Below are positions 1-26,621 of a DNA stretch of 32,778 nucleotides, one piece after another. The stretch is from the NCBI GenBank assembly GCA_913051935.1, contig CAJXCU010000024.1, forward strand, positions 1 to 32,778, read 5' to 3'. Numbering within the stretch: position 1 is the first letter of the stretch; every line of letters begins with the position of its first letter. Position numbers and translations under genes: made by a program. Source of the stretch: an uncultured Flavobacteriales bacterium (GTDB lineage Bacteria > Bacteroidota > Bacteroidia > Flavobacteriales_D > Crocinitomicaceae). The notes under the pieces are model-generated. The model was given only the letters and a program-made list of their open reading frames with translations, was not told the DNA's origin and ran no database searches.

Positions 1-38
1 ATCCATCTCATTATGAGTTAAGATTCCGCTTTTTTTAT

Positions 39-1286
39 TTACAGGAAAAATTGTCTCAACTTTCTTTTTGAAGATGAAATGACCTTAATTTTTAAAACGA
101 ATTTTGCAACACCTCCACTTAAATAAACATGATTCCACCAATTACCGTTAAGGTGTTTAAAAAGCATTCTTTTTCTAAGATGATATGTCTTATAATGAAT
201 CATAATACCCAAGTATGAATTCATGCTGTTTAAAAATTCTTTAAGATCTTGCTTTGTTGGTTTACGTAATTCAATTATTCTGTTCTGCTTTATAATGGCT
301 CTGTAAAAATTTCCTTTAGTGCGATTAGCAATATAAATTCTATTAGGTTTTATAATTGTACCTAAAAACGAAACCCCTTTTGTATAATGTTGTAGATAGA
401 TTTTTTTTGGATGAAGGCTTAAACACAGTTTATCTTTAAGATAAATCGATAAAACAGGAATTAATAACTTCAAATATTCTTTGTTTGGATGCACGATAAT
501 AAAATCATCAACGTATCTCCCGTAATAGCGAATACCGAGTTTTTTCTTGATAAAGTGATCGAAAGCGCTCATGTAGAAATTGGCGAATATTTGGCTTGTT
601 AAATTACCTATAGGTAAACCGCAATTTAGCGGACTATGAAATAGACTTTTGTTTTTAGGCAAACCTTTCCAGTTATTAGAACTTCCTTTTATGATGCAGT
701 TTTCAGTTGGACTGTTAAAAATAATTTTATTGCACACTTCCAAAACCAATTCCCTATCGTTATACGGATACTTTTTTTCAATAAAGGATTTTAAACGAGA
801 AAACAAAATCTCCTTATTGATGTGCATGAAAAAACCCTCTACATCTAATTTAAGTACATGACAATCGTTTATATAATTTTTAGAGCACTGGCGAATGAAT
901 TTATTGGCTCTACTGATTCCATAATGCGTTCCTTTGCCCACACGACAAGCATAACTGTCTTTAATAAACTCTTTTTCGAAAAGGGGGTTTAGTTTGTTAA
1001 TGATGAGATGATGCACCACTCGATCTCTAAAGTCTGCTGCAAAAATTTCACGTTGCACAGGCTTGTGAACTATAAAAGCTATAGACTTTTCCGGTTGGTA
1101 GCTTCCATCATTCAGCTCGTTACATAATTGAATAAGATTGCTTTCATAATCCAACTCAAAAGCGAGCGCATTAATGGTATTGCGTTTGTTGCTACGACAA
1201 GAGAAGTAGGCTTCAAAAACTTCTTCTAAAGTAAAGCCCTCTTTTAACTCTGTAGTTTCGGATGTAGAAAATAACGATAATTGCAT
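39..1286 (-). CDS. Reverse transcriptase of a diversity-generating retroelement (DGR)
   Basis: A 415-residue reverse transcriptase that should copy the adjacent template repeat RNA into cDNA with errors at adenines, for transfer into the variable repeat of the target gene. Visible motifs: KLDVEGFF at residues 146-153 (first catalytic Asp148), GLPIGNLTSQ at 223-232 (the block typical of DGR, group II and retron-type RTs), YVDD at 258-261 (catalytic Asp260/Asp261) and FLGTII at about 307-312. There is no maturase, endonuclease or RNase H domain, and the length matches compact DGR RTs. It is the last gene of a same-strand series (target, avd, TR, RT). Its ATG lies 15 nt after a strong stem-loop, with TR ending 58 nt upstream. 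The DGR assignment rests on the TR/VR pair as much as on the protein. A group II intron or retron RT is unlikely because no intron RNA domains or msr/msd-like structure are seen. Confidence 0.95.
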   Translation of the reverse strand: MQLSLFSTSETTELKEGFTLEEVFEAYFSCRSNKRNTINALAFELDYESNLIQLCNELNDGSYQPEKSIAFIVHKPVQREIFAADFRDRVVHHLIINKLNPLFEKEFIKDSYACRVGKGTHYGISRANKFIRQCSKNYINDCHVLKLDVEGFFMHINKEILFSRLKSFIEKKYPYNDRELVLEVCNKIIFNSPTENCIIKGSSNNWKGLPKNKSLFHSPLNCGLPIGNLTSQIFANFYMSAFDHFIKKKLGIRYYGRYVDDFIIVHPNKEYLKLLIPVLSIYLKDKLCLSLHPKKIYLQHYTKGVSFLGTIIKPNRIYIANRTKGNFYRAIIKQNRIIELRKPTKQDLKEFLNSMNSYLGIMIHYKTYHLRKRMLFKHLNGNWWNHVYLSGGVAKFVLKIKVISSSKRKLRQFFL

Positions 1287-1300
1287 ATACTTGAATTAAA

Positions 1301-1326
1301 AGCGCCCGAAGTTAACTTCGAGCGCT
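1301..1326 (-). terminator. Stem-loop between TR and RT (intrinsic terminator-like or DGR RNA 3' element)
   Basis: On the minus strand this is an 11-bp stem (AGCGCTCGAAG / CTTCGGGCGCT) with a TTAA loop, followed by a run of four T. One pair is a G-U wobble in minus-strand RNA but a C-A mismatch in plus-strand RNA, so the structure fits minus-strand transcripts. It begins 18 nt after the TR core and ends 15 nt before the RT start codon. It could terminate part of the transcription, giving more TR RNA than RT mRNA, or serve as a structured part of the TR-RT spacer, which is needed for DGR RNA function in studied systems. Which role applies is inference. Confidence 0.7.
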
Positions 1327-1344
1327 AGTAGTTTTGTTTAAAAC

Positions 1345-1479
1345 CCCGAACAGCGCGAACATTGTTGTTGTTGTTCTTATTGTTGTTGTTCTGGTTACCA
1401 TTGTTGAAATTCTGTTTCCACGCATTGTTGTTATCGTTCTCCGTAGAACTCCAATAATTGTTATTAGCAAAACCGCCAA
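1345..1479 (-). repeat. DGR template repeat (TR)
   Basis: A 135-nt non-coding repeat matching the 3' end of the target gene (2124-2258) at a constant offset of 779 nt. Read on the minus strand in the target frame, it is made largely of AAC and AAT codons (Asn) embedded among fixed codons for GGFA, YWSSTE, AW, Q, F and VRAVR. It has 52 adenines on that strand, 23 of them changed in VR. None of the other 83 bases is changed. AAY codons cannot become stop codons by adenine mutation, which suits a template built for diversification. The similarity breaks down on both sides, at 1344 and 1480. Confidence 0.96.
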
Positions 1480-1660
1480 CCACATAAAATAAAGGTGTTT
1501 ATCTAAATACAAGGCATCTTGCATTTATTATAGCTCGGTTCAATTCTGAAAAGAAAAGAACTTTGCTCGTTTTAACTGCTTTTACAAACAGTCCCTTTAT
1601 CGCTTTTAAACTAAAACTTGCTCACTCACTGCCACCTTAACAACAGCGATTCTGGCATCA

Positions 1661-2002
1661 TTAAGGCCGGCTATTGCGCCAACCTGTAATTTGTTTTCCA
1701 ATTCCATTCATTAACAAGCTAATTTCTGCTTGCTTTTTAATGGTAATTATCTTCATATCAACGCATAAACGTACTTCTAATTTTAACAATTCAAAGTCAT
1801 CTAAAAATATTTCCAAGTATTCTTTTTTGTTTTGCGCTTTGTTCGCTCTGTATATGCTTCTCATTAAAACCATGACATCTTTCTTTAAATCTTGCCCCAA
1901 GGTGTACTTGTATTCTTTGGGAAAGTCTTTGGTTAAGCTATAAATTAATAAAGTGAGCTTGTACACATCTTTAAAAACAGGTAAGTCATAATACAGTGCC
2001 AT
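1661..2002 (-). CDS. avd: Avd-like DGR accessory protein (four-helix bundle)
   Basis: A small, basic, mostly helical protein of 113 residues from the ATG at 2002. The upstream TTG at 2041 would add 13 residues that look unlike the family. The start MALYYDLPVFKDVYKL, then TKDFPKEYKYTLGQDLKKD and IYRAN, fits the four-helix-bundle Avd family, whose members form a positively charged pentameric barrel that binds the DGR RT and template RNA. It lies between the target gene and TR on the same strand, the standard place for avd. Related four-helix-bundle proteins also occur inside rRNA intervening sequences, but the TR and RT next door settle the role here. Confidence 0.92.
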   Translation of the reverse strand: MALYYDLPVFKDVYKLTLLIYSLTKDFPKEYKYTLGQDLKKDVMVLMRSIYRANKAQNKKEYLEIFLDDFELLKLEVRLCVDMKIITIKKQAEISLLMNGIGKQITGWRNSRP

Positions 2003-2026
2003 AACAGCTAATTTAAATGAAAAATG

Positions 2027-2065
2027 GAGGGCTACCCTCAATTTTAAAAATCGCCCGCTTCGCGG
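2027..2065 (-). other. Two small inverted repeats between VR and avd
   Basis: Two short hairpins sit in the gap between the target stop codon and avd: GAGGG-CTA-CCCTC at 2027-2039 and CCGC-TTC-GCGG at 2055-2065 (plus-strand reading). Stems are 5 and 4 bp. Some DGRs carry a GC-rich hairpin or cruciform downstream of VR that aids retrohoming. The GC-rich one here starts about 59 nt past the VR core, farther than usual, so that role is only a possibility. They might also act as a weak attenuator between target and avd. Confidence 0.35.
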
Positions 2066-2115
2066 TCAGGTGCCCATAACTTAAAAAATAGTTAAATGGT
2101 TAAATAGATAAATTG

Positions 2116-3042
2116 TTAAAAAGCCCGAACAGCGCGAACATTGTAGTTGGCGTACTTATTGCCGCTGTACTGGTCACCATAGGCGAAACTCTGCTCCCAC
2201 GCATTGGCGTCACCGCTCTCCGTAGAACTCCAATAATAGCTACTAGCAAAACCGCCAATATTTGATTTCTGATTATATACAAGATTTAATTCTCTTTTGG
2301 TAGGTAAACGCCAATCCATAAATTTTGCGCCGTTAACATCGTGATTATTCGCATCACTTAATAAATCGTTTGCCTCATACCATGAGCTACTTCCCTGGTC
2401 TTGCATCGCAACCACCAAACCGTGTTTACCACCATCACGAACTGCTATTACATAACCACCTAACTCTGCATAATTAGTATTTACATTGTAAATAGGTGGA
2501 GTATATGAGGTTCCAGTTGGACCTTGTGGACCTGTTGCTCCTGTTGCTCCATCATTTCCATCTGCACCTGCTGGACCTTGTGGACCTGTTGCTCCATCAT
2601 TTCCGTCTGCGCCTGCTGGACCTTGTGGACCCTCACCATTACCAGATGTTTTTGCATACAACGCATAAGGTACACTCATCAACTGGCTAGTTCCTGTTAT
2701 CGTGTAATTTATTCCTCCGTTCGGATCAGTTTCTGTTTTTATAAAGTACGGTCCTGCGCTCCAATCTATAGCACTAAATGTTCCTGAAACGGATGTTCCT
2801 GAACCTATCTCTAAACTTATCAACCCATTCGAGTTGGTGGTTGGAGTTTGTGTTTCTGTATAAACTGATATTCCACTTACCGTTCCCTGCAAGATGCTTA
2901 TTTGCATACCAACGTTTTGATTTATGACCAACTCATTACTTCCGTCTCTTACCACTGCCTGATAACTCATTTTTTCTGGTGTTTGAGCAAAGAGGCTTCC
3001 TGTAAAGAAAAAGGCGAATAGTAGTATAAAAATATTTTTCAT
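2116..3042 (-). CDS. DGR target: secreted collagen-like protein with variable DUF1566/C-type-lectin-like domain
   Basis: A 308-residue secreted protein whose end is diversified by the DGR. Layout: signal peptide (about 1-19, ending SLFAQ), a Bacteroidota N-terminal region (PEKMSYQAVVRD to VPYALYAK, 22-131), collagen-like Gly-X-Y repeats (138-178), and a DUF1566/Lcl-type domain (about 196-308) with WRLPTKREL and YWSSTE. The last 46 residues (262-307) are VR-encoded. Fixed residues (GGFA, YWSSTE, AW, VRAVRAF) alternate with variable ones. DUF1566 and FGE-type C-type-lectin folds are known DGR recipients that display variable residues on a ligand-binding face. There is no lipobox and no T9SS tail, so surface anchoring is unclear. 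The likely role is adhesion or ligand binding through a collagen-like stalk, inferred from architecture. Confidence 0.95.
   Translation of the reverse strand: MKNIFILLFAFFFTGSLFAQTPEKMSYQAVVRDGSNELVINQNVGMQISILQGTVSGISVYTETQTPTTNSNGLISLEIGSGTSVSGTFSAIDWSAGPYFIKTETDPNGGINYTITGTSQLMSVPYALYAKTSGNGEGPQGPAGADGNDGATGPQGPAGADGNDGATGATGPQGPTGTSYTPPIYNVNTNYAELGGYVIAVRDGGKHGLVVAMQDQGSSSWYEANDLLSDANNHDVNGAKFMDWRLPTKRELNLVYNQKSNIGGFASSYYWSSTESGDANAWEQSFAYGDQYSGNKYANYNVRAVRAF
2124..2258 (-). repeat. DGR variable repeat (VR) with invariant 3' end (IMH-like)
   Basis: This 135-nt copy of TR occupies the final codons of the target gene, and the stop codon follows almost at once (2116-2118). Compared with TR there are 23 substitutions: 15 A to G, 5 A to T and 3 A to C on the coding strand, affecting 18 codons. 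The last 17 nt (2124-2140) contain no adenine and are identical in TR. Just beyond, TR and VR differ by a G/C change (1344 versus 2123). This matches the GC-rich initiation-of-mutagenic-homology (IMH) site that marks VR as recipient and TR as donor. Confidence 0.96.
2509..2631 (-). repeat. Collagen-like tandem repeat in the DGR target
   Basis: It encodes 13-14 Gly-X-Y triplets, including two near-identical 15-residue units (GPQGPAGADGNDGAT) at 2631-2587 and 2586-2542, then a shorter variant. The 45-bp tandem nucleotide repeat can change length by slippage or recombination, so stalk length may vary between strains. Confidence 0.9.
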
Positions 3043-3062
3043 TTCAACTGATTTATGGTTTA

Positions 3063-3545
3063 TTAATTCTTTATTATTTTGAATGCTTTAATTACTTTAT
3101 TGTTTTTGATCACTTTTAAAAAGTACGTTGCGGGAGGATGACCTTCCAAACTTATATTGGAAGTTTTACTGTTTAACGTTTTACTCGAAATCTCCGCTCC
3201 TTGAATGTTAAACAGTTGATAGCTTAAACTTTCGGAATTATCCGTTGTTAGCGTTAAATTATTAGTGGTTGGATTGGGGTATACTGCTAATTCTAATTGA
3301 ATGGACGCTTCATTTAAGCCTACTGTTGTAGAAACTACATAAGGTTGCTGAACTCCTTGCGACAAACTTCCATTTGTTCCGGCATTGGTAGTATAAACTA
3401 CTTGCCCCACAGAATAACTTACGGTACCTCCACTTCCCGTTGCCTTTCCTCCTGAGGCTACTGTGTTTTCCTGTGCAGACAACTCAAGGGTAGCTAACAG
3501 TGAGAAAAAAGTAAAAGCTATCAATAATGTTTTTGAAATTTTCAT
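3063..3545 (-). CDS. Small T9SS-sorted secreted protein upstream of the DGR target
   Basis: A 160-residue protein from the ATG at 3545, which puts the signal peptide (MKISKTLLIAFTFFSLLATLELSAQ) at the N-terminus; the longer frame from 3590 adds an unlikely 15-residue leader. The mature part begins with a Gly/Ser-rich stretch (ASGGKATGSGGTVSYSVGQ) and a QGVQQPY motif. It ends in a type A T9SS sorting domain (VYPNPTTNNLTL to KAFKIIKN), so it should cross the outer membrane and become surface-attached or released. The target gene follows 21 nt downstream on the same strand, so the two are probably co-transcribed. A role in presenting the collagen-like target is plausible but inferred from position only. 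Confidence 0.85.
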   Translation of the reverse strand: MKISKTLLIAFTFFSLLATLELSAQENTVASGGKATGSGGTVSYSVGQVVYTTNAGTNGSLSQGVQQPYVVSTTVGLNEASIQLELAVYPNPTTNNLTLTTDNSESLSYQLFNIQGAEISSKTLNSKTSNISLEGHPPATYFLKVIKNNKVIKAFKIIKN

Positions 3546-3577
3546 TGTTACAGGTTTATTTAGATAAGGTATTTTTG

Positions 3578-3595
3578 CAAAACTAAACAAAAATA
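3578..3595 (-). promoter_or_regulatory. Candidate promoter -7 boxes for the T9SS/DGR-target operon
   Basis: Two matches to the Bacteroidota -7 consensus TAnnTTTG lie on the minus strand: TAGTTTTG (3585-3578) and TATTTTTG (3595-3588), 33-50 nt before the ATG at 3545. Neither has a clear TTTG -33 box at 19 nt spacing. No comparable box is seen just before avd or TR, so this may drive the whole DGR series. Confidence 0.4.
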
Positions 3596-3748
3596 AAAAG
3601 CTAAACCTAACTTAAATGAGTTAAAACGCAGTAATTAAAATCTAATATCGCTAATGTGAAAATGGTTATAACAACGCCTAAGAATAAATATTTGAGCTTC
3701 GCAGCAAATACATATCTTAGCCGGAACGTTCAATCATTAATGTATCTT

Positions 3749-3756
3749 TATTTTTG
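3749..3756 (+). promoter_or_regulatory. Candidate -7 box for the 3775 gene
   Basis: TATTTTTG matches TAnnTTTG and lies 18 nt before the ATG at 3775. No good -33 box is present at the usual spacing. The 230-bp interval 3546-3774 is a divergent promoter region; apart from this box and those of the opposite gene I see nothing else defined in it. Confidence 0.35.
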
Positions 3757-3774
3757 TACTGTAAAACTACCCTA

Positions 3775-4563
3775 ATGAAAAGCCTTCTTCTTTGTTTATT
3801 AATCCTCCCAATAGGACTGCATGCGCAGACCTACGTTCCTTTTATCTCAACAAACGATTCCTCTGACACCTGGATGGAAGTGAATAGTTGCAATGACTTT
3901 AGCTGCTTTGAGAGTTTTACCAATCGATATTCGATAGCAGGAGATACGACCATTGGAAGCTTTCAATATTCCAAGATTTTCAAAAAGGTTAAACATGTAA
4001 AAGGTACGGTTATGGGAGAATGGTGTGATGAATCTATTAATTATTACGAGTATTACTTCGGTGCGCTGCGGGAAAATGAGAAACAAGTTTTTCTAGTTCC
4101 CTCCTTTTCCTCATCGGAGTATTTAGCTTACGACTTTAATTTATCCGTTGGCGATACGCTTCCCTCTCCAGATGGTAATATTTCTGCGAATCCCATAGGT
4201 AGAATCATTAATACAATCGATTCTGTGCTAGCCTTTGGTAGCTTCAGGAAAAGGTTCGTTGTGGACAGCAGGTATGTCATAGAGGGAATTGGAGCCTCCA
4301 CTGGACTTTTCAACCCTTTGGTCTACTATCCCAGTGAATGTTATATGGCCATGCATTGTTATGCAGAATACGGTACTCCTGACCTTTTTCTTGAAGACTG
4401 TAATATGAATCTCAATGTGTACGAAATAGATAAGGAAACTGAATCACCAGTATTGGTAAAAATAGTTGATTACATGGGCCGCGAAACTCCAGTAATACCG
4501 AACACTACTTTAATATATATTTTCAGCGATGGAACGACAAAAAAAATATCTAAGTTTCAATAG
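3775..4563 (+). CDS. Secreted protein of unknown function
   Basis: 262 residues from the ATG at 3775; a TTG start at 3754 would add seven residues before the signal peptide and is less likely. It has a signal peptide (MKSLLLCLLILPIGLHAQ), then a Cys-containing body with no catalytic motif I recognise. The C-terminus, with KIVDYMGRETP and LIYIFSDGTTKKISK, resembles the degenerate T9SS-like tail seen on many Bacteroidota secreted proteins, where the usual YPNP motif is absent. It is divergently oriented to the DGR operon. Function unknown. Confidence 0.8.
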   Translation: MKSLLLCLLILPIGLHAQTYVPFISTNDSSDTWMEVNSCNDFSCFESFTNRYSIAGDTTIGSFQYSKIFKKVKHVKGTVMGEWCDESINYYEYYFGALRENEKQVFLVPSFSSSEYLAYDFNLSVGDTLPSPDGNISANPIGRIINTIDSVLAFGSFRKRFVVDSRYVIEGIGASTGLFNPLVYYPSECYMAMHCYAEYGTPDLFLEDCNMNLNVYEIDKETESPVLVKIVDYMGRETPVIPNTTLIYIFSDGTTKKISKFQ

Positions 4564-4587
4564 CAACAAACTTTAAAAAACCACATC

Positions 4588-4767
4588 ATGAAAAAGAAAA
4601 TTTTACCTGCACTAGGAATCATTATTGTTGCAATTATTCTTGTGGTCATAAATGAGTTTACAGAACTCACTTTTATTACCGATTATGCTTTGATATGTAT
4701 CATCGCGGGTATGTTCTTTGGTTTATGGCTGTCAAAACTATCTGATAAAACAAACGAAAATAAATAG
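4588..4767 (+). CDS. Small two-segment membrane protein
   Basis: A 59-residue protein, MKKKILPALG to KTNENK, with two predicted hydrophobic segments (about residues 6-21 and 33-48) separated by a short polar loop (NEFTELTFITD), and charged ends. It starts 24 nt after the preceding stop and is probably co-transcribed with it. I do not recognise a family. Confidence 0.6.
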   Translation: MKKKILPALGIIIVAIILVVINEFTELTFITDYALICIIAGMFFGLWLSKLSDKTNENK

Positions 4768-4792
4768 CGTCAGCTGTGCATAATTTCACCTT

Positions 4793-4942
4793 ATGACTTT
4801 AAGCAAACACTTAGAGGAGTTTTATAAAGAAAACAACATCCCTATTGATGGAGGGTTTAATGACACTTCTTTCAATTTCAAAGTGTTTGGAATCAAGCTA
4901 AAATCATCTAGTCCAAAAGGATGCGCAAAACGTATACACTAA
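4793..4942 (+). pseudogene. N-terminal gene remnant (possibly Coq4-like)
   Basis: An open frame of 49 codons beginning MTLSKHLEEFYKENN. It reads like the start of a real gene: good codon use, with FNFKVFGIKLK in the middle. It then stops at TAA (4940-4942) after GCAKRIH. The start resembles the N-terminus of a Bacteroidota Coq4-like protein of more than 200 residues, recalled from memory at low certainty. The same reading frame continues after the stop into a fragment of a different protein, so this looks like two truncated genes joined by a deletion. A genuine 49-residue protein is the alternative. Confidence 0.45.
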
Positions 4943-5116
4943 AAAGCATTGTACTGCTATTGGGGCAACCCAGGAGGGATCTTAGGTGTATTGGTCGCAG
5001 GATTTCTAGGCTGGTTCTTAACAAAATCAATACTTGAAACAAAGGGCATCTTCTGGGCGTGGTGGATTCATTTTTTACAAGATGTCATCATTATTACAGC
5101 CATATTAACCATGTAA
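4943..5116 (+). pseudogene. C-terminal remnant of a CPBP-family (CAAX protease-like) membrane protein
   Basis: From about 4952 the frame encodes YWGNPGGILGVLVAGFLG, then TKSILETKGIFWAWWIHFLQD, and ends ILTM-stop at 5114-5116. GVLVAGFLGW followed by W-x-H-F-x-Q-D is the last part of CPBP intramembrane metalloproteases, carrying the second conserved His. The first conserved motif (EExxxR) and the upstream membrane segments are missing, and there is no start codon, so this is a decayed 3' end. Confidence 0.65.
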
Positions 5117-5168
5117 GGATTTAAAAAAATCAAAATCTATCAAGGCCTAGCTAGGAAGAATAAAGCCG

Positions 5169-5176
5169 TATCTTTG
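5169..5176 (+). promoter_or_regulatory. Candidate -7 box for the FAD oxidoreductase
   Basis: TATCTTTG matches TAnnTTTG and lies 50 nt before the ATG at 5227. There is no clear TTTG box at -33. It also falls after the remnants, which suggests the oxidoreductase has its own promoter. Confidence 0.4.
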
Positions 5177-5226
5177 GCGAGCCCAAAGGAGTTAATTCAC
5201 TTTAAGCAGGAAAACGCAAAAAATCA

Positions 5227-6459
5227 ATGAAAGAGAAAGAGGCCATTTATATTATTGGTGCTGGGGTGAGCGGAATGATCGCTGCATATGAGCTGGAACA
5301 GGAGGGCTATCATCCGATAATTATTGAGCAAACAGATGAGGTAGGTGGAAGAGTTAAGACCATTCATGAAAAGGGATATGCACTAGACCTTGGATTTCAA
5401 GTACTGCTGAGTGCTTATCCTTTGGCCCAAAAATATCTTGATTTCGACGCACTTGAATTGCATCAACTCGAATCAGGGGCATTGATTTATGTAAACGACA
5501 AAGCCTACCGGATTGGCGACCCAATGAGAAACTGGAGAGTGCTCTTGCCTACCCTGTTTTCAGATATCGGCTCGATCAGTGACAAGCTCAAAGTCTTAAA
5601 ATTAAACAACAGACTAAAGCGCAAATCTATTCATGAAATCTTTGAATCACCTGAAACGACAACAATTCAATACCTTACTGAATTTGGTTTTTCACCGAAG
5701 ATTATTGAACGATTCTTCAAGCCATTTTTCGCAGGAATCTTTCTAGAATCTAATATTCGAACATCCAGTAGAATGTTTGAATTTGTCTACAAAATGTTTG
5801 GTGAGGGATATGCCACCATACCCAAATTGGGTATAGGAGAAATAAGCCATCAATTGAAAAACAAATTACAAAACACCGAATTCATTTTTAACTGTGAAGT
5901 AAAGGAGATTACAAATGACAAGATATTGATGGCTTCTGGAGAAAGCTTACCTCATGATGGCGTAATCATAGCGACCAATTCAACTTCCATCATTCGTTCC
6001 CATGAGGGTGCAGATATGAAATGGAAAGCTTGCATGTGTCTTTATTTTGAAGTCGACCAAACAAATATTCCTGCCAATACGATTGCACTGATTGCAGATA
6101 GCGGAAATTATGCCAATAACATATATGCCTACACAGATGCCAAAACAGGAAAAACAATCCTATCCGTAACCGCCCTCGAGCACATGAACAAGCCGGATGC
6201 GGAAATCACTGAAAAAATTATCGCAGAGGTTAAGAAATATGCAGGAGCACGGAAGGTAAACTTTATTCATCAGTACAGAATCAAACAGGCGCTACCTGAT
6301 ATTCAAAACCTAAAAATGACAGTTCAACCTGGGGAGAATCAGGTGATGGATAATGTATTTATCGCGGGAGACGCTTTAATGAATGGTTCATTAAATGCCG
6401 CCATGGAGTCTGGTCGCATAGCTGCGAAGTCACTGCTAGAAAAAAGAAAAGAAATCTAA
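5227..6459 (+). CDS. FAD-dependent amine oxidase / protoporphyrinogen oxidase-like oxidoreductase
   Basis: A 410-residue flavoprotein. The N-terminal Rossmann dinucleotide-binding motif is GAGVSG at residues 11-16, followed by the Glu that ends strand 2 (IIIEQ) and the family-typical GGRVKT near 40-45. The C-terminal FAD-contact block is VFIAGDALMNGSLNAAMESG (about 376-395), as in the amine-oxidase, phytoene-desaturase and HemY superfamily. It should be a soluble, monomeric-type oxidase or dehydrogenase acting on amine or polyene-like substrates; the substrate cannot be read from sequence. No carotenoid or heme genes are adjacent, so no pathway can be assigned. Length is slightly short for the superfamily but complete at both ends. 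Confidence 0.85.
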   Translation: MKEKEAIYIIGAGVSGMIAAYELEQEGYHPIIIEQTDEVGGRVKTIHEKGYALDLGFQVLLSAYPLAQKYLDFDALELHQLESGALIYVNDKAYRIGDPMRNWRVLLPTLFSDIGSISDKLKVLKLNNRLKRKSIHEIFESPETTTIQYLTEFGFSPKIIERFFKPFFAGIFLESNIRTSSRMFEFVYKMFGEGYATIPKLGIGEISHQLKNKLQNTEFIFNCEVKEITNDKILMASGESLPHDGVIIATNSTSIIRSHEGADMKWKACMCLYFEVDQTNIPANTIALIADSGNYANNIYAYTDAKTGKTILSVTALEHMNKPDAEITEKIIAEVKKYAGARKVNFIHQYRIKQALPDIQNLKMTVQPGENQVMDNVFIAGDALMNGSLNAAMESGRIAAKSLLEKRKEI

Positions 6460-6560
6460 TTAAATAAATGAATCGTATTTGGCATCAATAACTATGGCAG
6501 ACAATATGTAAATTGAACCATAAATCATTACATAATGAAAATGAAAATAGTGTCATTCCG

Positions 6561-6710
6561 GTTGGTCACCAAATGGGTAAAAGAATTGAAATGATTGATA
6601 ATGTAGTTCTTACTGAATGTAAACTTGAATTGTCCGAGTATATCTCAGGCCTCTATTGTATAGGATTAAAAAGTTTAAGAGGACTTCAATCCAAGAAAAT
6701 TCAAAAGTAA
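6561..6710 (+). pseudogene. Remnant of a T9SS C-terminal sorting domain
   Basis: An open frame (readable from a TTG at 6513) ends with LSEYISGLYCIGLKSLRGLQSKKIQK. This has the form of the last half of a type A sorting domain, with a LYxIxxxS core and a Lys-rich KKI end. There is no ATG, signal peptide or cargo domain before it. It most likely is the tail of a lost secreted-protein gene, lying 6 nt before the methyltransferase start. Confidence 0.4.
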
Positions 6711-6716
6711 AATAAT

Positions 6717-7565
6717 ATGATTAAAAATATCTATCGGTTTTTGTCTCCGAAATTTCAAACACTCTTTTCAGAGTATAATGTAAATATGAAACCCCGTTAT
6801 GGGCATGGAAAACCGGCTCACACCGAGTTGTACGAAATTATAAATGAGAATAGAGATTTATACAAAGAATTTATAGAAAAAGCCCTGCATTATAAGGATA
6901 ATATTCAAAAAATTAAACAAAGTGGCAATGATTCTGATGTTAGTAACCCAACTTGGAATAATGGTTTTTTACCTGGTTTAGATATTATAGGAATATATTC
7001 AATGTTGGCTATAAACAATCCAAAGAAATATATTGAGGTTGGCTCTGGTAACTCAACAAAAGTGGTCCATAAATCAAAAAAAGAGAATAATTTAAACACG
7101 GAAATTATTTCAATAGATCCCATGCCGAGGGCTGAAATAGACCATCTGGCCGATACCGTAATTAGAAAACCATTTGAAGATGTTGATTATAAAGAAATAC
7201 TCGATTTAGAAGAAAACGATATACTATTCATAGATAATTCGCACAGAATTTTACCAAATTCGGACTCAATGGTGTTTTATTTGGAAGTCCTACCGAAATT
7301 AAAAAAAGGAGTTATCGTTCATATTCATGATATCTATTTACCATATGATTATCCTCAATTTATGTGTGATAAATTTTATACCGAGCAATATGGTTTGGCT
7401 ATGTATTTATTAGCAAATCCTACAAAATATAAAACTATATTACCAAACTATTTTATATTTGAGGACCAAGAGTTAAGCAAACTAGCAGAACCCTTTTGGG
7501 ACCATGAAAATTTAAAAGGAGTTGAACAACATGGAGGTTCATTTTGGTTGCAAATAGTGAAATAG
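6717..7565 (+). CDS. Class I SAM-dependent methyltransferase-like protein
   Basis: A 282-residue protein. It has a Rossmann-type methyltransferase core: motif I YIEVGSGNSTKVV (about 99-111), the acidic residue of motif II in ISIDPMP, motif IV DILFIDNSHR, and a later VIVHIHDIYLPYDYP block. HIHDI followed by P-x-DYP is typical of the class I methyltransferase family often found near surface-polysaccharide genes. It sits alone here, with AT-rich codon use compared with the flanking oxidoreductase and next to a sorting-domain remnant, which hints at recent acquisition. The substrate is unknown. Confidence 0.75.
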   Translation: MIKNIYRFLSPKFQTLFSEYNVNMKPRYGHGKPAHTELYEIINENRDLYKEFIEKALHYKDNIQKIKQSGNDSDVSNPTWNNGFLPGLDIIGIYSMLAINNPKKYIEVGSGNSTKVVHKSKKENNLNTEIISIDPMPRAEIDHLADTVIRKPFEDVDYKEILDLEENDILFIDNSHRILPNSDSMVFYLEVLPKLKKGVIVHIHDIYLPYDYPQFMCDKFYTEQYGLAMYLLANPTKYKTILPNYFIFEDQELSKLAEPFWDHENLKGVEQHGGSFWLQIVK

Positions 7566-7735
7566 AAAGTTCGTGCAGACAAGAAAGGTCAGACATTATA
7601 TGGGTTTTAGCGCCAGTTTGAAAGATTATTGTTAAATAAACTTTAGAACTTGGAGAAAACGAACAAAACATAAGTAATAGCCACCCTTTTTCGGATTAAC
7701 AAAGGCTCATATTTGAGACGAAAAATAATATTAAT

Positions 7736-8416
7736 ATGAAAAAAATACTAATAATAACATTCGCGCTGATTAGCACTTTAAGCCATTCACAAGAGAGGGA
7801 TTTCGAAAAGCCGAATTATAAAAAGATTAAAAAAAATATAAAGAAAAAGAATTCTAATCTGTATTATAATTCATTAATGACGAGATTCCGAAATGCAGAT
7901 TCAACAATGAATTTGAAGGAAAAAAGACATCTATATTATGGTTATACGTTTAATAAAGATTATGCACCTTATTCTGGCTCTAACTATCGAGACAGCATAA
8001 AACCCTTATTGGATAAAGAGAAATTAGATAGTTTGGACTTAACTAAGTGCATTGAATTTGCAGATGCAATGCTCTTACATAATCCTTTTGATCTAAATGC
8101 AATGAACTATAAATCTTATGCACTTGAACAAATGGGTAATATAACAGATTATAAGAAATTATATCATCAAGCCATAACTATTTATGATGCTATATTTAGT
8201 TCTGGAAATGGAAAAAGTAGAAAAGAAGCGTTTTACGTTATTGAAATCTCCCATGAATATAAGGTATTAAACATCCTTGGTTTTCAGTGGGGCGGTTCCC
8301 AATCTAAAATAGAAAGCTATGATTATTTGACTTTAGCCGAAAATGAGTGGGAAATAGAAGGATTGTATTTTGACGTAAGTCCTGCACTTAGTGTGTTATC
8401 CGATATGTTTGATTAA
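7736..8416 (+). CDS. DUF4919-family secreted protein
   Basis: 226 residues with a signal peptide (MKKILIITFALISTLSHSQ), a Lys-rich stretch (about 27-45), and a helical body containing RHLYYGYTF and a TPR-like segment (NPFDLNAMNYKSYALEQMG). The layout and the YYGY motif match DUF4919 proteins of Bacteroidota, whose function is unknown. It is preceded by 170 bp and followed by 166 bp of AT-rich non-coding DNA, so is probably monocistronic. Confidence 0.75.
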   Translation: MKKILIITFALISTLSHSQERDFEKPNYKKIKKNIKKKNSNLYYNSLMTRFRNADSTMNLKEKRHLYYGYTFNKDYAPYSGSNYRDSIKPLLDKEKLDSLDLTKCIEFADAMLLHNPFDLNAMNYKSYALEQMGNITDYKKLYHQAITIYDAIFSSGNGKSRKEAFYVIEISHEYKVLNILGFQWGGSQSKIESYDYLTLAENEWEIEGLYFDVSPALSVLSDMFD

Positions 8417-8537
8417 TCGATTTTTACCGAGCCCGTAAAAAATCATCAAATATAAGAGTGAGTTAAACAGCCTATATTTATTAAAAAAACCTCTACCTTA
8501 ATATAAAAATGAAGCTTAGTAAATAATATCTTTAAAG

Positions 8538-8558
8538 ATTTACAAAACAACTAATATT
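8538..8558 (+). repeat. 21-bp upstream motif, copy 1
   Basis: A 21-mer running ATTTACAAAACA to CTAATATT, ending 24 nt before the ATG at 8583. It matches 19 of 21 positions of the copy at 10287-10307, which lies at a similar distance before another T9SS gene. It may be a shared promoter or leader element. Confidence 0.45.
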
Positions 8559-8582
8559 CAATGATCTATAAATGCGCAAATC

Positions 8583-9200
8583 ATGAATAAAAACATATTA
8601 CTATTGATTATTGCTTTAAGCAGCTTTAGCACATATTCGCAGATTTTATCAAACAACACATGGTCTGTATATGACGATGATAATATGTTCTTTCTATACT
8701 TTAAATTTGAATCTGACACAGTTAGTTATAGTTCAAATAATAACACTTTCTATGATGTTTCAACTTTCCAAGAAAGTGGAAATAATTTCACTATTGTTGA
8801 TTTGCCCACATCGCCATGTGAAGGTATTGTTGGCGAATATACTTTCCAGATAAATAATGATACTTTGTACTTTAATTTAATTGGTGACTCATGTTCAACG
8901 CGTCCCACAATTTTTACAACGTACCATTGGGTCAATGAGACCGCAGAAATCCAAAATTTAAATCGATTCCACTCCATTAAAGTATTTCCTAATCCTGCAA
9001 GTGATTTCATTTCAATTGAATCAAGTTTTGTGCGTCCAAATTCGTCATATACCATTTTCGAACAAACAGGTCGTAAAGTTCTGACAGGGAGCTTAACCAA
9101 TAAAACAACATTAGTCGACATAAAACAGCTAAAGCAGGGCGTTTATTTCATTCAATTAGGAAATCGAAATAAGCAAAAGATTCAGTTAATTAAAGAGTAA
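8583..9200 (+). CDS. T9SS-sorted secreted protein of unknown function
   Basis: 205 residues. Signal peptide MNKNILLLIIALSSFSTYSQ, then a beta-rich middle of about 100 residues (NNTWSVYDDDNMFFLYFKF and following) with two Cys that could pair. It ends in a type A T9SS sorting domain from about residue 130 (KVFPNPASDFISIE to KIQLIKE). The middle resembles small lipocalin-like or uncharacterised Bacteroidota domains, but I cannot name it. The protein should be exported through T9SS to the cell surface. Confidence 0.8.
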   Translation: MNKNILLLIIALSSFSTYSQILSNNTWSVYDDDNMFFLYFKFESDTVSYSSNNNTFYDVSTFQESGNNFTIVDLPTSPCEGIVGEYTFQINNDTLYFNLIGDSCSTRPTIFTTYHWVNETAEIQNLNRFHSIKVFPNPASDFISIESSFVRPNSSYTIFEQTGRKVLTGSLTNKTTLVDIKQLKQGVYFIQLGNRNKQKIQLIKE

Positions 9201-9328
9201 TAGCTCGACCCTTAGACGTTTCTTTTTCGTGAAATCGCTTGTTAAAGAATCACGTATTCTGCAATTTGAAAAAGCAAAATTTGGAACCTATTGCGATGTA
9301 TAGCCGTAACAATTTAACTTTTAATTAT

Positions 9329-9387
9329 TTATTGTTTAATAATTAATATTTATTGTTTTTCAATTTAATTTTATTGTTTATCAATAA
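9329..9387 (+). promoter_or_regulatory. Three operator-like repeats, 21-bp period
   Basis: Three copies of TTATTG start at 9329, 9350 and 9371, exactly 21 bp (two helical turns) apart. The third is a perfect palindrome, TTATTG-TTTAT-CAATAA (9371-9387). The second keeps CAAT in the right half, and the first is more degenerate. The graded dyads on one helix face, directly before a gene pair encoding an HTH protein, suggest cooperative binding by that protein or a paralogue. Confidence 0.65.
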
Positions 9388-9403
9388 AAAATAACTATGT
9401 TTG
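9373..9403 (+). promoter_or_regulatory. Promoter of the DUF2975-HTH operon
   Basis: The -7 box TATGTTTG (9396-9403) lies exactly 19 nt after ATTG (9373-9376), a near match to the TTTG -33 box. The predicted transcription start near 9410 gives a leader of about 13 nt before the ATG at 9423. The best palindrome of the repeat array covers the -33 box, as expected for repression. Confidence 0.6.
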
Positions 9404-9422
9404 TAAAAAAATAAACATAACA

Positions 9423-10007
9423 ATGGAAAAACACCACACCCCACGAAGTATAAGCTTGATACATTTTATCACCAATTTCTTCTTTTGGCTTACCACTGGT
9501 ATATCTGTGATTGCCCTATGCTTTTCGGGCTATATTGCTTTTGGAGGTAGTCTTTCCGGCGAAATCTCATTTGATATATTGGGCAATGACCATGTTTATG
9601 AAAATTTTAATGAAGCCCCAGCAGCTATCAAAGCCGGGATTTTTACAGCGATGTTGACCGTATTGACCACAGTGTTCATCATATTCTTCTATTTCAAACG
9701 TTTCATGAAGCTTATATACGAGGGACAATATTTCGATTTAAAAACGATTAAAAACTTGAAGATGATTTCTTATTTACTCGCGGCAGTGTTCTTTCTAAAG
9801 ATCATCATCGGAGTAGTTATAAGTGTAATGTTCGGCCCCGAAATATTTGATGTGACACAGGGAACCGGATCAACAATGGCATTCACATTTGATGCTACAT
9901 CTTTCGATAGACCAGGTGTGCTCATTATTGCATTGATTTTTTGGGTCCTTTCTCATATTTTTATGGAGGGAGCAAAGCTCAAAGAAGCCAACGAATTAAC
10001 GATTTAA
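9423..10007 (+). CDS. DUF2975 integral membrane protein
   Basis: 194 residues with four hydrophobic segments (about 18-42, 75-97, 113-136 and 163-182), as in DUF2975 proteins. These small membrane proteins are regularly encoded just upstream of a short Xre-type HTH regulator, as here. Their function is not established, though a sensor or immunity-like partner of the regulator is often suspected. The stop codon is 2 nt before the HTH gene start, so translation is probably coupled. Confidence 0.88.
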   Translation: MEKHHTPRSISLIHFITNFFFWLTTGISVIALCFSGYIAFGGSLSGEISFDILGNDHVYENFNEAPAAIKAGIFTAMLTVLTTVFIIFFYFKRFMKLIYEGQYFDLKTIKNLKMISYLLAAVFFLKIIIGVVISVMFGPEIFDVTQGTGSTMAFTFDATSFDRPGVLIIALIFWVLSHIFMEGAKLKEANELTI

Positions 10008-17860: not shown

Positions 17861-18343
17861 TTAAAAATAATAGGAATCCATTATATCGCACCTATGGTGT
17901 GAATGAATTTCACCTGTTCCCTTTGAAATAAATTTCGAATGATCAAAAGGAAAACGAATCTCGGCACATGAAGCATTGCGCATGACGATATGCTTAGCTG
18001 TCAAATACGAGGCAAACTCCGAGAGGCCATTATTGTGGCCAATCAACACAATATCCTCGTCCGAATCTATGGAGCAAATGAAATCAAGTAAGTCCATTGC
18101 ATTGGCTAAGTATAGACGCTTATGAAAAGAAACACCTTCAGATGTGTTAAATATATTGAAACAGGTTTCTTTGGTTCTTTTCGCCGCCGAGCAGAGTACT
18201 TTATTTTTAGAAGTGATTTTTTTTGACAAGATAAAACTTCTTAAATCTACACATTGTACATTACCTTTTTCGGACAATTTACGTTCATAATCGCCCAAGG
18301 GGGATTCTAATGCATTTGCGTGACGAACTAAATAAAGTCTCAA
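17861..18343 (-). CDS. SixA-like phosphohistidine phosphatase (histidine phosphatase family)
   Basis: 160 residues with the RHG signature LVRHAN at residues 5-10 (catalytic His8), a second Arg in SAAKRTKET, and the distal LIGHNNGLSEF with the second catalytic His. The short length and lack of insertions fit SixA, which removes phosphate from histidine phosphotransfer proteins. In Bacteroidota the physiological substrate is unproven. Its ATG overlaps the stop of the CpsB-like phosphatase (18340-18343), which pairs two phosphatases in one operon. Confidence 0.88.
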   Translation of the reverse strand: MRLYLVRHANALESPLGDYERKLSEKGNVQCVDLRSFILSKKITSKNKVLCSAAKRTKETCFNIFNTSEGVSFHKRLYLANAMDLLDFICSIDSDEDIVLIGHNNGLSEFASYLTAKHIVMRNASCAEIRFPFDHSKFISKGTGEIHSHHRCDIMDSYYF

Positions 18344-19083
18344 ATCACCAAGTTTTTAACTAGGTAATTTCCGATTTTATGAATGTAGGGATTGCGCAAA
18401 TTATCTTCCAAAAGCATGAGCTGCTCTATGCGATGACAGTCTGTTCCTACGAAATCAAATTCACCGGCATCAATAAGCTTTTCTGCTTGCTTTTTTACCT
18501 CAGGTCCGTATTGCCCTGAAAGCGAGTTAAGATTAATTTGAATATTTATGCCGTTTTTACGCCATTCTCGCGCCTTATCAATACTTCCGAGAAAGTACAT
18601 GTATCGCTCGAAATGAGCAATAACAGGACGGTACTCTTTCGACTTAAGCTCAAAAAATAGCTGATCTAAAAACTGCGGTTTTGAGTGAAAGGCAAATTCA
18701 ACCAAAACATAATTATCTCCAAAAGTCAGTAGTTCCTTATTCGTGATTTTCGGCATCAAAGTCTCATCAAAATAATACTCTGCTGCTGCCTCTATTTCTA
18801 TGGTTAGGCCATGATTTTTCGCCTCTTTTTGCAGTTTAGAAAGACCATCCAAAATGATTTCATTTGTATTTGGAAAAGAATCTGTCATTACATGGGGAGT
18901 AGTCACAACCTTTTTGAACCCCATACTCTGGAATTTATTCAACATTGCAATTGACTGATCCATGTCTTGTGCACCATCGTCAATACCCGGAATAAGATGT
19001 GAATGAATGTCAACTTTCAAGCGACCCAAATCAAAAGGTGCTAACTTTTCAGTCTTTTTAAATATGTTCGCGAATAAACCCAT
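18340..19083 (-). CDS. CpsB/YwqE-type PHP-domain tyrosine-protein phosphatase
   Basis: 247 residues with a PHP metal-binding fold: DIHSHLIPGIDDGAQD (His27 and His29), VVTTPH near 60, VIAHFERY and GTDCHR toward the end. CpsB/Wzb-like PHP phosphatases dephosphorylate the BY-kinase that controls capsule or exopolysaccharide chain length. The matching Wzc/BY-kinase is not in the window. It starts at the last base of the rfbB stop (19083) and is part of the surface-polysaccharide operon. Confidence 0.92.
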   Translation of the reverse strand: MGLFANIFKKTEKLAPFDLGRLKVDIHSHLIPGIDDGAQDMDQSIAMLNKFQSMGFKKVVTTPHVMTDSFPNTNEIILDGLSKLQKEAKNHGLTIEIEAAAEYYFDETLMPKITNKELLTFGDNYVLVEFAFHSKPQFLDQLFFELKSKEYRPVIAHFERYMYFLGSIDKAREWRKNGINIQINLNSLSGQYGPEVKKQAEKLIDAGEFDFVGTDCHRIEQLMLLEDNLRNPYIHKIGNYLVKNLVI

Positions 19084-20138
19084 TATTTACGATCTCCATA
19101 CATTTGACTGTAATAATCCTTATATGATCCACTAGTAACCTGTTCTACCCAATCTGAGTTTTCAAGATACCAATCAACAGTTTTAGAAAGTCCTTCTTCA
19201 AATGTAATGGAGGGTTTCCAACCTAATTCTTTCTCTAGTTTCGTCGCATCAATTGCATAGCGCTTATCATGCCCCGCTCGGTCTGCTACATAGGTAATCA
19301 GTTGCTCTGATTCGCCTTTACTTCTTCCCAACTTTTCGTCCATCAATCGGCATAAAAAGCGGACAAGCTCAATATTTGTCCATTCGTTTAAACCTCCTAC
19401 ATTATAGGCTTCACCAACGCTGCCATTTGTGAATATGGTATCAATCGCACTTGCATGATCTTCTACCCACAACCAATCTCTAATATTGTCTCCTTTACCG
19501 TATACGGGAAGTGGTTTTTTGTTGAGGATATTATGAATCATCAAAGGAATTAGCTTTTCAGGAAAATGGTGGCTTCCATAATTGTTTGAGCAATTAGAAA
19601 TTTTTACTGGCAAACCATAGGTATGGTAATAAGCCCGCACAAAATGATCCGAAGATGCCTTTGACGCCGAATATGGGCTTCTAGGATCATAAGAGGTCTC
19701 CTCTGTAAATAATCCCTCATTACCCAGAGAACCATAAACTTCATCCGTTGAAACATGGTGAAACACATGCTCTCCTGAGGTCCAAAATTCCTTTGCTGCA
19801 TTCAATAAATTCACAGTTCCAACAACATTAGACATCACAAATTCCATAGGGCCTTCAATTGAGCGATCTACGTGAGATTCAGCAGCCAGGTGAATTACAT
19901 GGGTGATTTTGTGCTTGATAAAAAGGAGTCTGACTGCCTCACTATCTGTAATATTCAGTCGTTCAAAAATATAATTAGATGCTCCTTCGATATCTCTTAA
20001 GTTTTCTAGGTTACCTGCATAGGTCAGTGCATCACCATTAATGATATTATCATCTGGGTAGTTTTGAACAAAACGGCGAACAACATGGGAACCAATAAAA
20101 CCGGCTCCCCCAGTAACAAGTATATTTCGACCATTCAT
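19083..20138 (-). CDS. rfbB: dTDP-glucose 4,6-dehydratase
   Basis: 351 residues of an extended short-chain dehydrogenase. NAD site TGGAGFIGSH (9-18), the dehydratase-specific TDE (131-133) that includes the catalytic Asp/Glu, and YSASK (Tyr156, Lys160). The C-terminal half has the substrate-domain RDWLWVEDHA and GHDKRYAID blocks. It makes dTDP-4-keto-6-deoxyglucose from dTDP-glucose. The partner genes rfbA, rfbC and rfbD are absent from the window, so the final sugar (rhamnose, an amino sugar or another) is undetermined. Confidence 0.96.
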   Translation of the reverse strand: MNGRNILVTGGAGFIGSHVVRRFVQNYPDDNIINGDALTYAGNLENLRDIEGASNYIFERLNITDSEAVRLLFIKHKITHVIHLAAESHVDRSIEGPMEFVMSNVVGTVNLLNAAKEFWTSGEHVFHHVSTDEVYGSLGNEGLFTEETSYDPRSPYSASKASSDHFVRAYYHTYGLPVKISNCSNNYGSHHFPEKLIPLMIHNILNKKPLPVYGKGDNIRDWLWVEDHASAIDTIFTNGSVGEAYNVGGLNEWTNIELVRFLCRLMDEKLGRSKGESEQLITYVADRAGHDKRYAIDATKLEKELGWKPSITFEEGLSKTVDWYLENSDWVEQVTSGSYKDYYSQMYGDRK

Positions 20139-20139
20139 T

Positions 20140-21444
20140 TTATAAACTCCAGTATTCTACCTCATTCATCTGATCTTTGTAGATTCCTTTCACATCGACA
20201 AATACACCATTTTTATCTTTCAATACCGACTGAAAATATGCCTCATCTAATTTCAGATATTCCGCATGATTTACGGCTACAATTACGGCATCATAATCCT
20301 CACCTATCGAGGCTGCAAGTGGAATGCCATATTCATGTTCCATTTCATTTGAGCTCGCATGGGGGTCAACCAAATCCACTTTTACCTGAAAGGACTTTAA
20401 TTCATTAACGATATCAATTATTTTAGAATTTCGAATGTCTGAAACATCCTCCTTAAAAGTTGCACCCATGACCAATACTTTCGCATCTTGGATGTGCTTT
20501 CCTTGTGCCAAAATTTTCTTAACGGTCTGCTTTGCAATGTAAAAACCCATTGAGTCATTCACAGAACGACCACTCGTAATCACTTTTGCATGGTACCCTG
20601 ATTGTTGGGCTTTATGTGTCAAATAATACGGATCGACACCAATGCAATGCCCACCAACCAAACCTGGTGAAAATTTTAGGAAATTCCATTTTGTCCCGGC
20701 GGCCTCTAAGACATCAAATGTATTGATATTTAGCTTATTGAAAATAATGGAAAGTTCATTGATTAACGCAATGTTGACGTCTCTCTGCGTGTTTTCAATG
20801 ATTTTAGCAGCTTCTGCGACTTTAATACTTGGTGCTCTGTGGACACCTGCACCAACCACCAATTCGTATGTTTTAGCAATTTCTTCTGAAGATTCAGGAC
20901 AACAACCCGAGGAAACTTTAACCACATTTTGAAGGGTATGTACTTTATCTCCTGGATTGATTCTTTCTGGAGAATAACCAACCTTGAAATCCTCTTGAAA
21001 TTTCAATCCCGATCCTTTTTCAAGAACCGGAATACAATCCTCCTCTGTGCACCCAGGATAGACTGTAGATTCATAAACCACATAGTCGCCCTTTTTTAAA
21101 ACTTTTGCAACTGTTTTGCTTGCACCCAAGAGCGGTGTTAGGTCAGGTAAATTTGCATCATCAATAGGTGTTGGAACAGCTACAATATAGAATTGAACGT
21201 CCTGCAAATCATTAATATCAGCTGAAAACAAAATATCACATCCTTCAAAGTCTTTCGCATCTAATTCATTACTTGGATCAATATTGTTCTTCATCATATC
21301 GACTCGCTCTTGGTTAATATCAAAACCAACTACCTTTATTTTTCTGGCAAAATCTAATGCAATCGGCAAACCAACATAACCCAAACCAATTACGGCAAGC
21401 TTCGATTCACCTTTCAACATGCTATCGTAGATTAAATCACTCAT
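20140..21444 (-). CDS. UDP-N-acetylhexosamine 6-dehydrogenase (WbpA/TviB family)
   Basis: A 434-residue nucleotide-sugar dehydrogenase. NAD-binding GLGYVGLP (20-27), the acidic strand end VVGFD, VPTPID near 90, YESTVYPG (124-131), and the catalytic Cys267 in GGHCIGVDPYYL. The GHCIGVDPYYL block and overall pattern group it with TviB/WbpA-type enzymes that oxidise UDP-GlcNAc (or GalNAc) to the uronic acid, rather than with UDP-glucose dehydrogenase, which is present separately at 24029. The WbpB-, D- and E-like enzymes nearby point to UDP-GlcNAc as substrate. Confidence 0.92.
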   Translation of the reverse strand: MSDLIYDSMLKGESKLAVIGLGYVGLPIALDFARKIKVVGFDINQERVDMMKNNIDPSNELDAKDFEGCDILFSADINDLQDVQFYIVAVPTPIDDANLPDLTPLLGASKTVAKVLKKGDYVVYESTVYPGCTEEDCIPVLEKGSGLKFQEDFKVGYSPERINPGDKVHTLQNVVKVSSGCCPESSEEIAKTYELVVGAGVHRAPSIKVAEAAKIIENTQRDVNIALINELSIIFNKLNINTFDVLEAAGTKWNFLKFSPGLVGGHCIGVDPYYLTHKAQQSGYHAKVITSGRSVNDSMGFYIAKQTVKKILAQGKHIQDAKVLVMGATFKEDVSDIRNSKIIDIVNELKSFQVKVDLVDPHASSNEMEHEYGIPLAASIGEDYDAVIVAVNHAEYLKLDEAYFQSVLKDKNGVFVDVKGIYKDQMNEVEYWSL

Positions 21445-24026: not shown

Positions 24027-24028
24027 GA

Positions 24029-26476: not shown

Positions 26477-26494
26477 TTCCGCGATTAACAGCCA

Positions 26495-26615: not shown

Positions 26616-26621
26616 TATCTC

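Follow-up and report, generated by a model that had tools for sequence, protein, structure and literature searches.

Diversity-generating retroelements (DGRs) whose variable protein carries a DUF1566 (Lcl_C) head are already well known. Targets of this family or of Fib_succ_major have been reported in bacterial genomes and metagenomes (PMC4159848, PMC6642488), and DGRs have been reported as enriched in a group that includes the Bacteroidetes (PMC8144416). The Legionella adhesin Lcl is a trimer (PMC11162425; structure 8Q4E), and the authors of the work on the Bdellovibrio MAT fibers left the identification of a surface element to further study (PMC10769870). In the BPP-1 DGR, a hairpin/cruciform downstream of the variable repeat (VR) is needed for efficient homing (PMC3240598). 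Here, we analyzed a stretch of 32,778 nucleotides (the window) from an uncultured Flavobacteriales bacterium of the family Crocinitomicaceae (assembly GCA_913051935.1, contig CAJXCU010000024.1). The window begins at base 1 of the contig, and near this edge lies a locus that is very probably a cellular DGR, with mutagenic copying of a template repeat (TR) into the VR and diversification of a protein head. It is a canonical DGR added onto a common two-gene fiber module.

The retroelement and its repeat pair

Read along the minus strand, the order of the parts is partner gene, target gene, avd, TR, hairpin, and reverse transcriptase (RT) gene (Table 1); the RT stop lies 38 bases from the contig edge, where our view ends. 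A preliminary description of this DNA had listed a complete DGR (target with VR, avd, TR, and RT) on one strand and in this order, with unbroken frames. All of these parts were found as described, and every DGR frame is open in the list of open reading frames (ORFs). The unit had been placed at 39 to 3042; because the upstream partner gene belongs to the conserved unit, the upper end has to be moved to at least 3545. The avd gene stands as well, with its start shifted from the TTG at 2041 to the ATG at 2002, which is most likely and matches the protein starts of relatives. The fiber architecture, the type IX-sorted partner, and the two conserved hairpins dealt with below were not part of that description.

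The longest direct repeat in the window, located with a repeat finder blind to base type, consists of 1334-1479 and 2113-2258 (146 nt, 83% identical). Twenty-four of its 25 mismatches fall on the 57 TR adenines and only 1 on the 89 other sites (Fisher P = 7e-11), and the adenine-site changes from TR to VR comprise 15 A>G, 6 A>T, and 3 A>C. AAC and AAT codons are abundant in the TR, and their VR counterparts encode S, Y, D, A, or G or remain N. The sole non-A mismatch, G136C, was found at the same position in the related loci L011 and L012 and is therefore a fixed difference between the initiation of mutagenic homing (IMH) sequence and its TR counterpart, IMH*. This mismatch and an A>T that creates a stop codon in the VR, and not in the TR, separate IMH (GGGCTTTTTAA) from IMH* (GGGGTTTTAAA), a difference also present in L011, L012, L013, and L062. 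Along similar lines, the VR stop codon is not a stop in the TR in 45/51 loci.

Comparison between species gave the same picture. Two relatives with RTs 81-82% identical to that of the window have TRs 92-95% identical to its TR. At shared non-A TR sites, the window VR agrees with their VRs at 83/83 and 79/80 positions (162/163 in total), while at shared TR-adenine sites, the agreement is only 29/56 and 23/55 (52/111). Where the TRs differ and A is in neither, both VRs match their own TR in 15/16 pairwise comparisons. This divergence at TR adenines, with each VR tracking its own TR, points to repeated TR-to-VR copying with adenine-specific errors, and the interspecies pattern indicates that the DGR has been active over evolutionary time. 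L062, the closest relative by RT segment (86%), was excluded because its locus is decaying. The VR agreement counts and the counts of terminator-like and strong hairpins below were made without L008, L009, L010, L042, L057, L079, L087, and L088, eight loci in which the TR/VR pair was weak, unusual, duplicated, or missing; spacers containing N were left out of the strong-hairpin count as well.

The identity of the RT and avd genes agrees with the repeat pair. The RT matches RVT_1 (71.9 bits, Pfam) and phrog_1423 (326 bits, PHROG), and its nearest solved structure is the chain named "Reverse transcriptase" of 8UB7 (328 residues, E = 1e-31), which we take to be the BPP-1 DGR RT (the BPP-1 brt product likewise has 328 amino acids [aa]). 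Scores against the group II intron model (105 bits; cutoff, 300) and the retron St85 model (50.5 bits; cutoff, 235) were below the cutoffs. We built a tree of 69 RTs, namely, the window, BPP-1, G118, six group II introns, and 60 of 86 relatives (one duplicate set aside), the remaining 26 lacking a 300-480-aa frame that was open and had an ATG close to where the alignment begins. The preliminary description had named a grouping with group II introns or retrons as one of the results that would speak against a DGR; instead, in this tree without retron RTs, the six group II RTs split off (100/100), with BPP-1 brt on the side of the window and both BPP-1 and the outgroup on long branches (program warning). 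The window RT joins L011 and L012 (100/99) and then L015 (98/94). Its neighbor Avd matches Pfam bAvd (71.4 bits; cutoff, 40) and phrog_3206, "Avd protein of DGR" (2e-25). Taken with the TR/VR pair and the C-type-lectin-like head at the C terminus of the target, RT and Avd therefore identify a DGR. As for an antiviral RT, matches were obtained to 52 PADLOC RT-type models, led by the generic "RT" (131 bits) and followed by Cas1_IIIb (88) and RT_UG17 (87); given the TR/VR pair and Avd, this reading was rejected.

By this mechanism, RT and Avd would reverse transcribe the TR transcript with errors opposite adenines, as established in BPP-1, and the mutated cDNA would replace the VR that closes the target gene at its 3' end, the site being marked by the IMH and a downstream CCGC-GAA-GCGG hairpin. 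The IMH* beside the TR, a pattern observed in the sequence, would protect the template. We regard such adenine-mutagenic copying of TR into VR as very likely.

Some observations weigh against a DGR of this kind. The avd product scores below the cutoff of the NCBIfam model DivGenRetAVD (69.1 bits; cutoff, 80), and the genome sequence is a draft consensus. Of the 88 loci scanned (87 and the window), 20 gave no TR/VR pair, some because they were truncated; a pair was found in 68, and after six were set aside, 62 were pooled. In this pool, TR adenines were changed at 1,237/3,002 positions (14 more read N) and other sites at 68/5,613, a bias that is partly built in and not independent since the finder used for relatives penalizes non-A mismatches. 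The pooled TR/VR, stop-codon, and post-VR motif counts leave out L008, L042, L057, L079, L087, and L088, and in these counts, as in those of the hairpins, loci outside the limits set for pair score, gap, or length are likewise left out.

It is unlikely that the repeat pair merely records the past activity of a recently silenced DGR. Among relatives, L062 is visibly decaying, genome G049 keeps only a remnant of its RT, and the RT frame of L034 is broken; in the window, however, all frames are intact, RT substitutions relative to relatives fall preferentially on third codon positions, and no non-A mismatch exists apart from the IMH difference common to L011 and L012. No second VR was found elsewhere in the genome (90.67% complete), and two weak VR-like matches (29 nt, E = 0.16; 16 nt, E = 0.3) were taken as chance.

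Two degraded copies can be described separately. In L062 (797-3003), a close relative, the RT lies in two frames (228 + 170 aa), the repeat pair has 5 non-A mismatches, and the post-VR hairpin motif is absent, apparently a DGR caught degenerating. In L169 (G049:C3), a fiber gene (4012-5379) with a partner and an Lcl_C-like tip has a 213-aa RT remnant (9098-9739, turned locus) 3.7 kb downstream; no avd match was found near this remnant in the 14 kb taken, and the locus is an apparent dead DGR beside a surviving fiber pair.

TABLE 1 Positions of the DGR, fiber, and partner features in the window
Feature	Position	Strand	Basis and remarks
DGR reverse transcriptase	39..1286	-	415 aa; GLPIGNLTSQ and YVDD; RVT_1, phrog_1423, PDB match, tree
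11-bp terminator-like hairpin followed by T-rich tract, TR/RT gap	1301..1326	-	Hairpin scan of loci
Template repeat (TR)	1334..1479	-	57 adenines; IMH*-type end, GGGGTTTTAAAC, which lacks the VR stop codon
avd (accessory variability determinant)	1661..2002	-	113 aa from ATG; ORF list extends to TTG at 2041
CCGC-GAA-GCGG hairpin 3' of VR, candidate target-recognition hairpin/cruciform	2055..2065	-	Motif count over loci
Variable repeat (VR)	2113..2258	-	Ends in IMH-type GGGCTTTTTAAC, source of the stop codon
Target gene, 308-aa fiber-like protein	2116..3042	-	ORF, domain profiles, predicted structure
Target signal-peptide-like N terminus, aa 1-20	2983..3042	-	Read by eye from the sequence, not by a predictor
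Target N-terminal fiber domain, aa 21-134	2641..2982	-	Remote match to Bdellovibrio MAT N-domain
Target collagen-like Gly-X-X stalk, aa 137-178	2509..2634	-	PF01391 and repeats
Target Lcl_C/C-type-lectin-like head, aa 193-308	2119..2466	-	Final 46 residues VR encoded
Partner, 160 aa; N terminus resembling a signal peptide; C-terminal sorting domain for type IX secretion at aa 88-155	3063..3545	-	PF18962

The probable fiber and its type IX-sorted partner

The target looks like a fiber with a MAT-like N-domain, a collagen-like stalk, and a head that shares homology with Lcl, the trimeric adhesin of Legionella. Its N-domain scores 40 bits against NF053851, the Bdellovibrio MAT N-domain (cutoff, 60), a model matched at E values up to 0.001 in 13/18 aligned targets, and residues 21 to 120 are predicted with a mean pLDDT of 82-97 per ten residues. 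No clear match to this domain appeared among the listed structures, though matches to the head fill that list. The stalk scores just below the cutoff of PF01391 (26.7 bits; cutoff, 27.2), the head is above the Pfam cutoff for Lcl_C (DUF1566), and the target reaches 111.9 bits against the Lcl equivalog model (cutoff, 500). Within the aligned tail, nine residues of Lcl contact glycans, and all nine positions fall on TR-adenine codons. This mapping fits the earlier proposal that the VR rewrites the ligand-binding end of a surface protein, in which surface location and ligand binding are the conjectural part. The target would be exported by its signal peptide and would trimerize through the stalk and the Lcl-like head, with the VR-encoded face outward. 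We consider such a surface fiber probable from homology and the model, the putative trimer being suggested by Lcl and the collagen-like stalk and the predicted structure being that of a monomer. The same genome encodes a second fiber, C4 (L108, 4053-6014), a 661-residue open frame with an N-domain 54% identical, a long collagen-like stretch, and a tip that is different from that of the target and longer.

That the target is instead a prophage tail fiber, with the DGR altering phage host range, seems very improbable. PHROG tail-fiber matches, mostly to the collagen-like stretch, relatives of the RT in 103 phage records (all <60% identical), and phage DUF1566 proteins that match the predicted structure would agree with it. 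However, the target starts like a signal peptide, its partner is type IX sorted, and the neighbors carry cell envelope domains; nine other window proteins scanned gave no PHROG match, one side of the locus being the contig edge; and only four relatives on viral contigs were found.

Immediately upstream of the target, the partner gene encodes a small protein scoring above the cutoffs of PF18962 (43.2 bits; cutoff, 27) and TIGR04183 (47.8 bits; cutoff, 23). It has the properties of a type A type IX cargo, and SprA is encoded in the same genome (2378 bits). A fiber N-domain gene lies upstream of the RT in 15 DGR loci, the window included. The sequence upstream is truncated in L019, and a near-full-length partner precedes the fiber in 14/14 of those with upstream sequence; among these, L028 has an intervening gene, L016 gave no TR/VR pair, and the L030 fiber contains masked bases. 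Leaving the window aside, 14 N-domain loci remain, and six of them are not in the RT tree (L016, L017, L025, L034, L083, and L086); in L025 (Geofilum rhodophaeum), the RT frame ends before the end of the aligned stretch. Of the complete targets that lack the N-domain and have 600 bp or more of upstream sequence, none is preceded by a near-full-length partner (0/20).

The pairing extends well beyond DGRs. In 120 genomes of the order, 82/88 near-full-length partner matches precede a fiber N-domain (within 600 bp downstream, same strand), mostly without a DGR, and 68 of these 82 pairs are spaced 63-90 bp from the matched N-domain start; six have no such neighbor. Partial partner matches, mostly to the sorting tail, have a fiber N-domain downstream in only 1/40. 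Counted from the fibers, a partner is present for at least 83 of the 150 fiber matches listed, in at least 53 of the 120 genomes; as both searches had thresholds, these pairing counts are lower bounds. Tips differ widely among 30 fibers inspected, 28 of them paired. Given these varied tips and a DGR RT in only 3/120 genomes (one of the three being a remnant), the pair is a general chassis and the DGR an occasional addition.

Based on its conserved pairing, we give an even chance that the partner anchors or escorts the fiber, in which case the MAT-like base would be held at the surface by the partner or exported with it. There are counts on the other side: 67 of the 150 fiber matches listed have no listed partner within 600 bp, the partner search having its own threshold; C4 has no adjacent partner, and may share that of the window; and partner residues 20-93 are predicted at a pLDDT of <50. 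The only PDB match of the partner with E values up to 0.001 was the type IX sorting domain 8qb1, the N-terminal part being poorly modeled. The partner could also be a small adhesin in its own right or some other product with no link to the fiber beyond the operon, a possibility that we place somewhat short of even. It has its own export signal, and some fibers lack a listed partner, but the pairing recurs across the genomes, and the wide variation of tips among the fibers inspected means that the partner tracks the fiber base rather than the ligand.

With regard to distribution, a DGR RT was found in 3/37 genomes of the genus, including that of the window, and the nearest RTs are in records labeled Flavobacteriales. 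The other two RTs of the genus (L009 and that shared by L037 and G009) belong to a different subclade from the window RT; the DGR locus of L037, labeled Lishizhenia tianjinensis (Crocinitomicaceae, Bacteroidota), is identical to that of same-genus G009 (L008). Five neighboring window proteins (3754 to 9200) were found at no DGR locus of a relative, and no common insertion site was seen. RTs of one genus in separate subclades and neighbors that are not common point to a patchy, probably horizontal gain of the DGR. In L040 (1434-2348), a DGR with a collagen-like target (15 Gly-X-X) occurs in a genome labeled Actinobacteria; its RT is placed among those of Legionellaceae and Myxococcota, pointing to transfer or mis-binning. 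L088 (Oligoflexia, Bdellovibrionota; 1668-4631 and 5957-7064) has a DGR with a 988-aa fiber-like target combining a MAT N-domain (111 bits; cutoff, 60) with an FGE-sulfatase-type domain; here, the TR is downstream of the RT, and 13/13 mismatches are at adenines, a kind of pair favored by the finder. Elsewhere in the window, 18340-28606 holds cell envelope polysaccharide genes, with dehydratase/epimerase, hexapeptide transferase, and Kdo transferase domains (Pfam) and nucleotide-sugar dehydrogenases and an aminotransferase read from ORFs alone.

Two conserved hairpins

Among loci with a TR/RT gap of 40-160 nt, a strong hairpin lies in this gap in 35/44, the window included (1.46 expected from dinucleotide shuffles), with 32 distinct stem sequences among the 35. 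In 27/44 loci, TTTT lies on its 3' side as in a terminator (0.24 expected), and a stricter count, with 5 T required among the 8 bases after the hairpin, gave 22/58 against 1.0 expected. The nine loci without a strong hairpin include L034 and L086, which have partner and fiber. We are evenly divided on whether this hairpin is an intrinsic terminator that sets the 3' end of the TR RNA and limits RT; on about the same footing, the TR RNA would end there and RT would be made by read-through only. That the hairpin instead forms part of a folded spacer RNA, to which RT-Avd would bind and which would prime cDNA synthesis, is a reasonable, if somewhat less than even, prospect. The BPP-1 spacer folds, recruits bRT-Avd, and primes synthesis (PMC12875486), and its stem, of 10 bp, has no T tract; in these loci, by contrast, the T tract is frequent and the stems vary freely. 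The spacer measures 47 nt, with a terminator-like hairpin, in the window versus 144 nt in BPP-1. An Rfam scan of bases 1-4000 gave one Thr_leader match over part of the TR and the hairpin (24.6 bits, below the gathering score of 55), which was taken as chance.

After the VR, the motif CCGC-N3/4-GCGG was found in 31/57 loci, including the window, against 0.03 expected by base shuffling; among loci with an RT identity of at least 58%, the count was 28/35. Terminator-like hairpins are infrequent at this position (5/59 loci versus 1.0 expected). The window hairpin resembles the homing hairpin/cruciform of BPP-1, where its counterpart is GCGGGGCC-GAAA-GGCCCCGC. Its dimensions argue the other way: the perfect stem has 4 bp (5 in many relatives), with a GAA loop, and lies 47 nt after the VR, versus 8 bp, GAAA, and 4 nt in BPP-1.

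Meaning and comparison with known systems

To our knowledge, neither the location nor the ligand of the variable protein is known for most cellular DGRs. Here, the fiber chassis and its type IX-sorted partner would give, from sequence, a concrete picture of the site of such a protein and of the role of its mutable face. The target can be read as a fiber, with Lcl as a structural template for the head and with the partner as a candidate surface anchor, and the mutable face coincides with the reported glycan-contact surface of Lcl. We tentatively propose, with confidence a little under even, that the Flavobacteriales and other Bacteroidota have an undescribed two-gene surface fiber system, in which a small anchor is sorted by the type IX pathway and the fiber is a trimer with a MAT-type base and exchangeable tips; DGRs would have joined this system more than once to give self-diversifying receptors. 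If so, L088 would show the same union of DGR and MAT fiber in another phylum with a distant RT, and the partner would be the kind of surface element that the authors of the MAT fiber work left to further study. The whole set (partner, fiber with VR, avd, TR, and full-length RT frame) is also present in the cultured type strain Psychroserpens burtonensis DSM 12212 (L044), so that display, anchoring, and ligand choice are accessible to experiment.

The DGRs of PMC4159848, PMC6642488, and PMC8144416 share with that of the window the head family and the cassette type, a likeness by description. No mention of the fiber base with an upstream type IX-sorted partner was found in the available text of these papers, nor was a description found in the open-access literature searched, subscription papers being mostly outside it. 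Compared with Legionella Lcl, the N terminus of the target is different, and no word beginning with "diversity" occurs in the main text of PMC11162425. Compared with the Bdellovibrio MAT fibers, in the available text of PMC10769870 "diversity-generating" appears in the references only and "type IX" nowhere. The BPP-1 DGR (mtd-avd-TR-brt, L107) is similar in the order of its parts, adenine-specific mutagenesis, the IMH/IMH* difference, the post-VR hairpin, and a C-type-lectin-like head, whereas the DGR described here resides in a bacterial genome, on a collagen-stalked fiber with a type IX-sorted partner.

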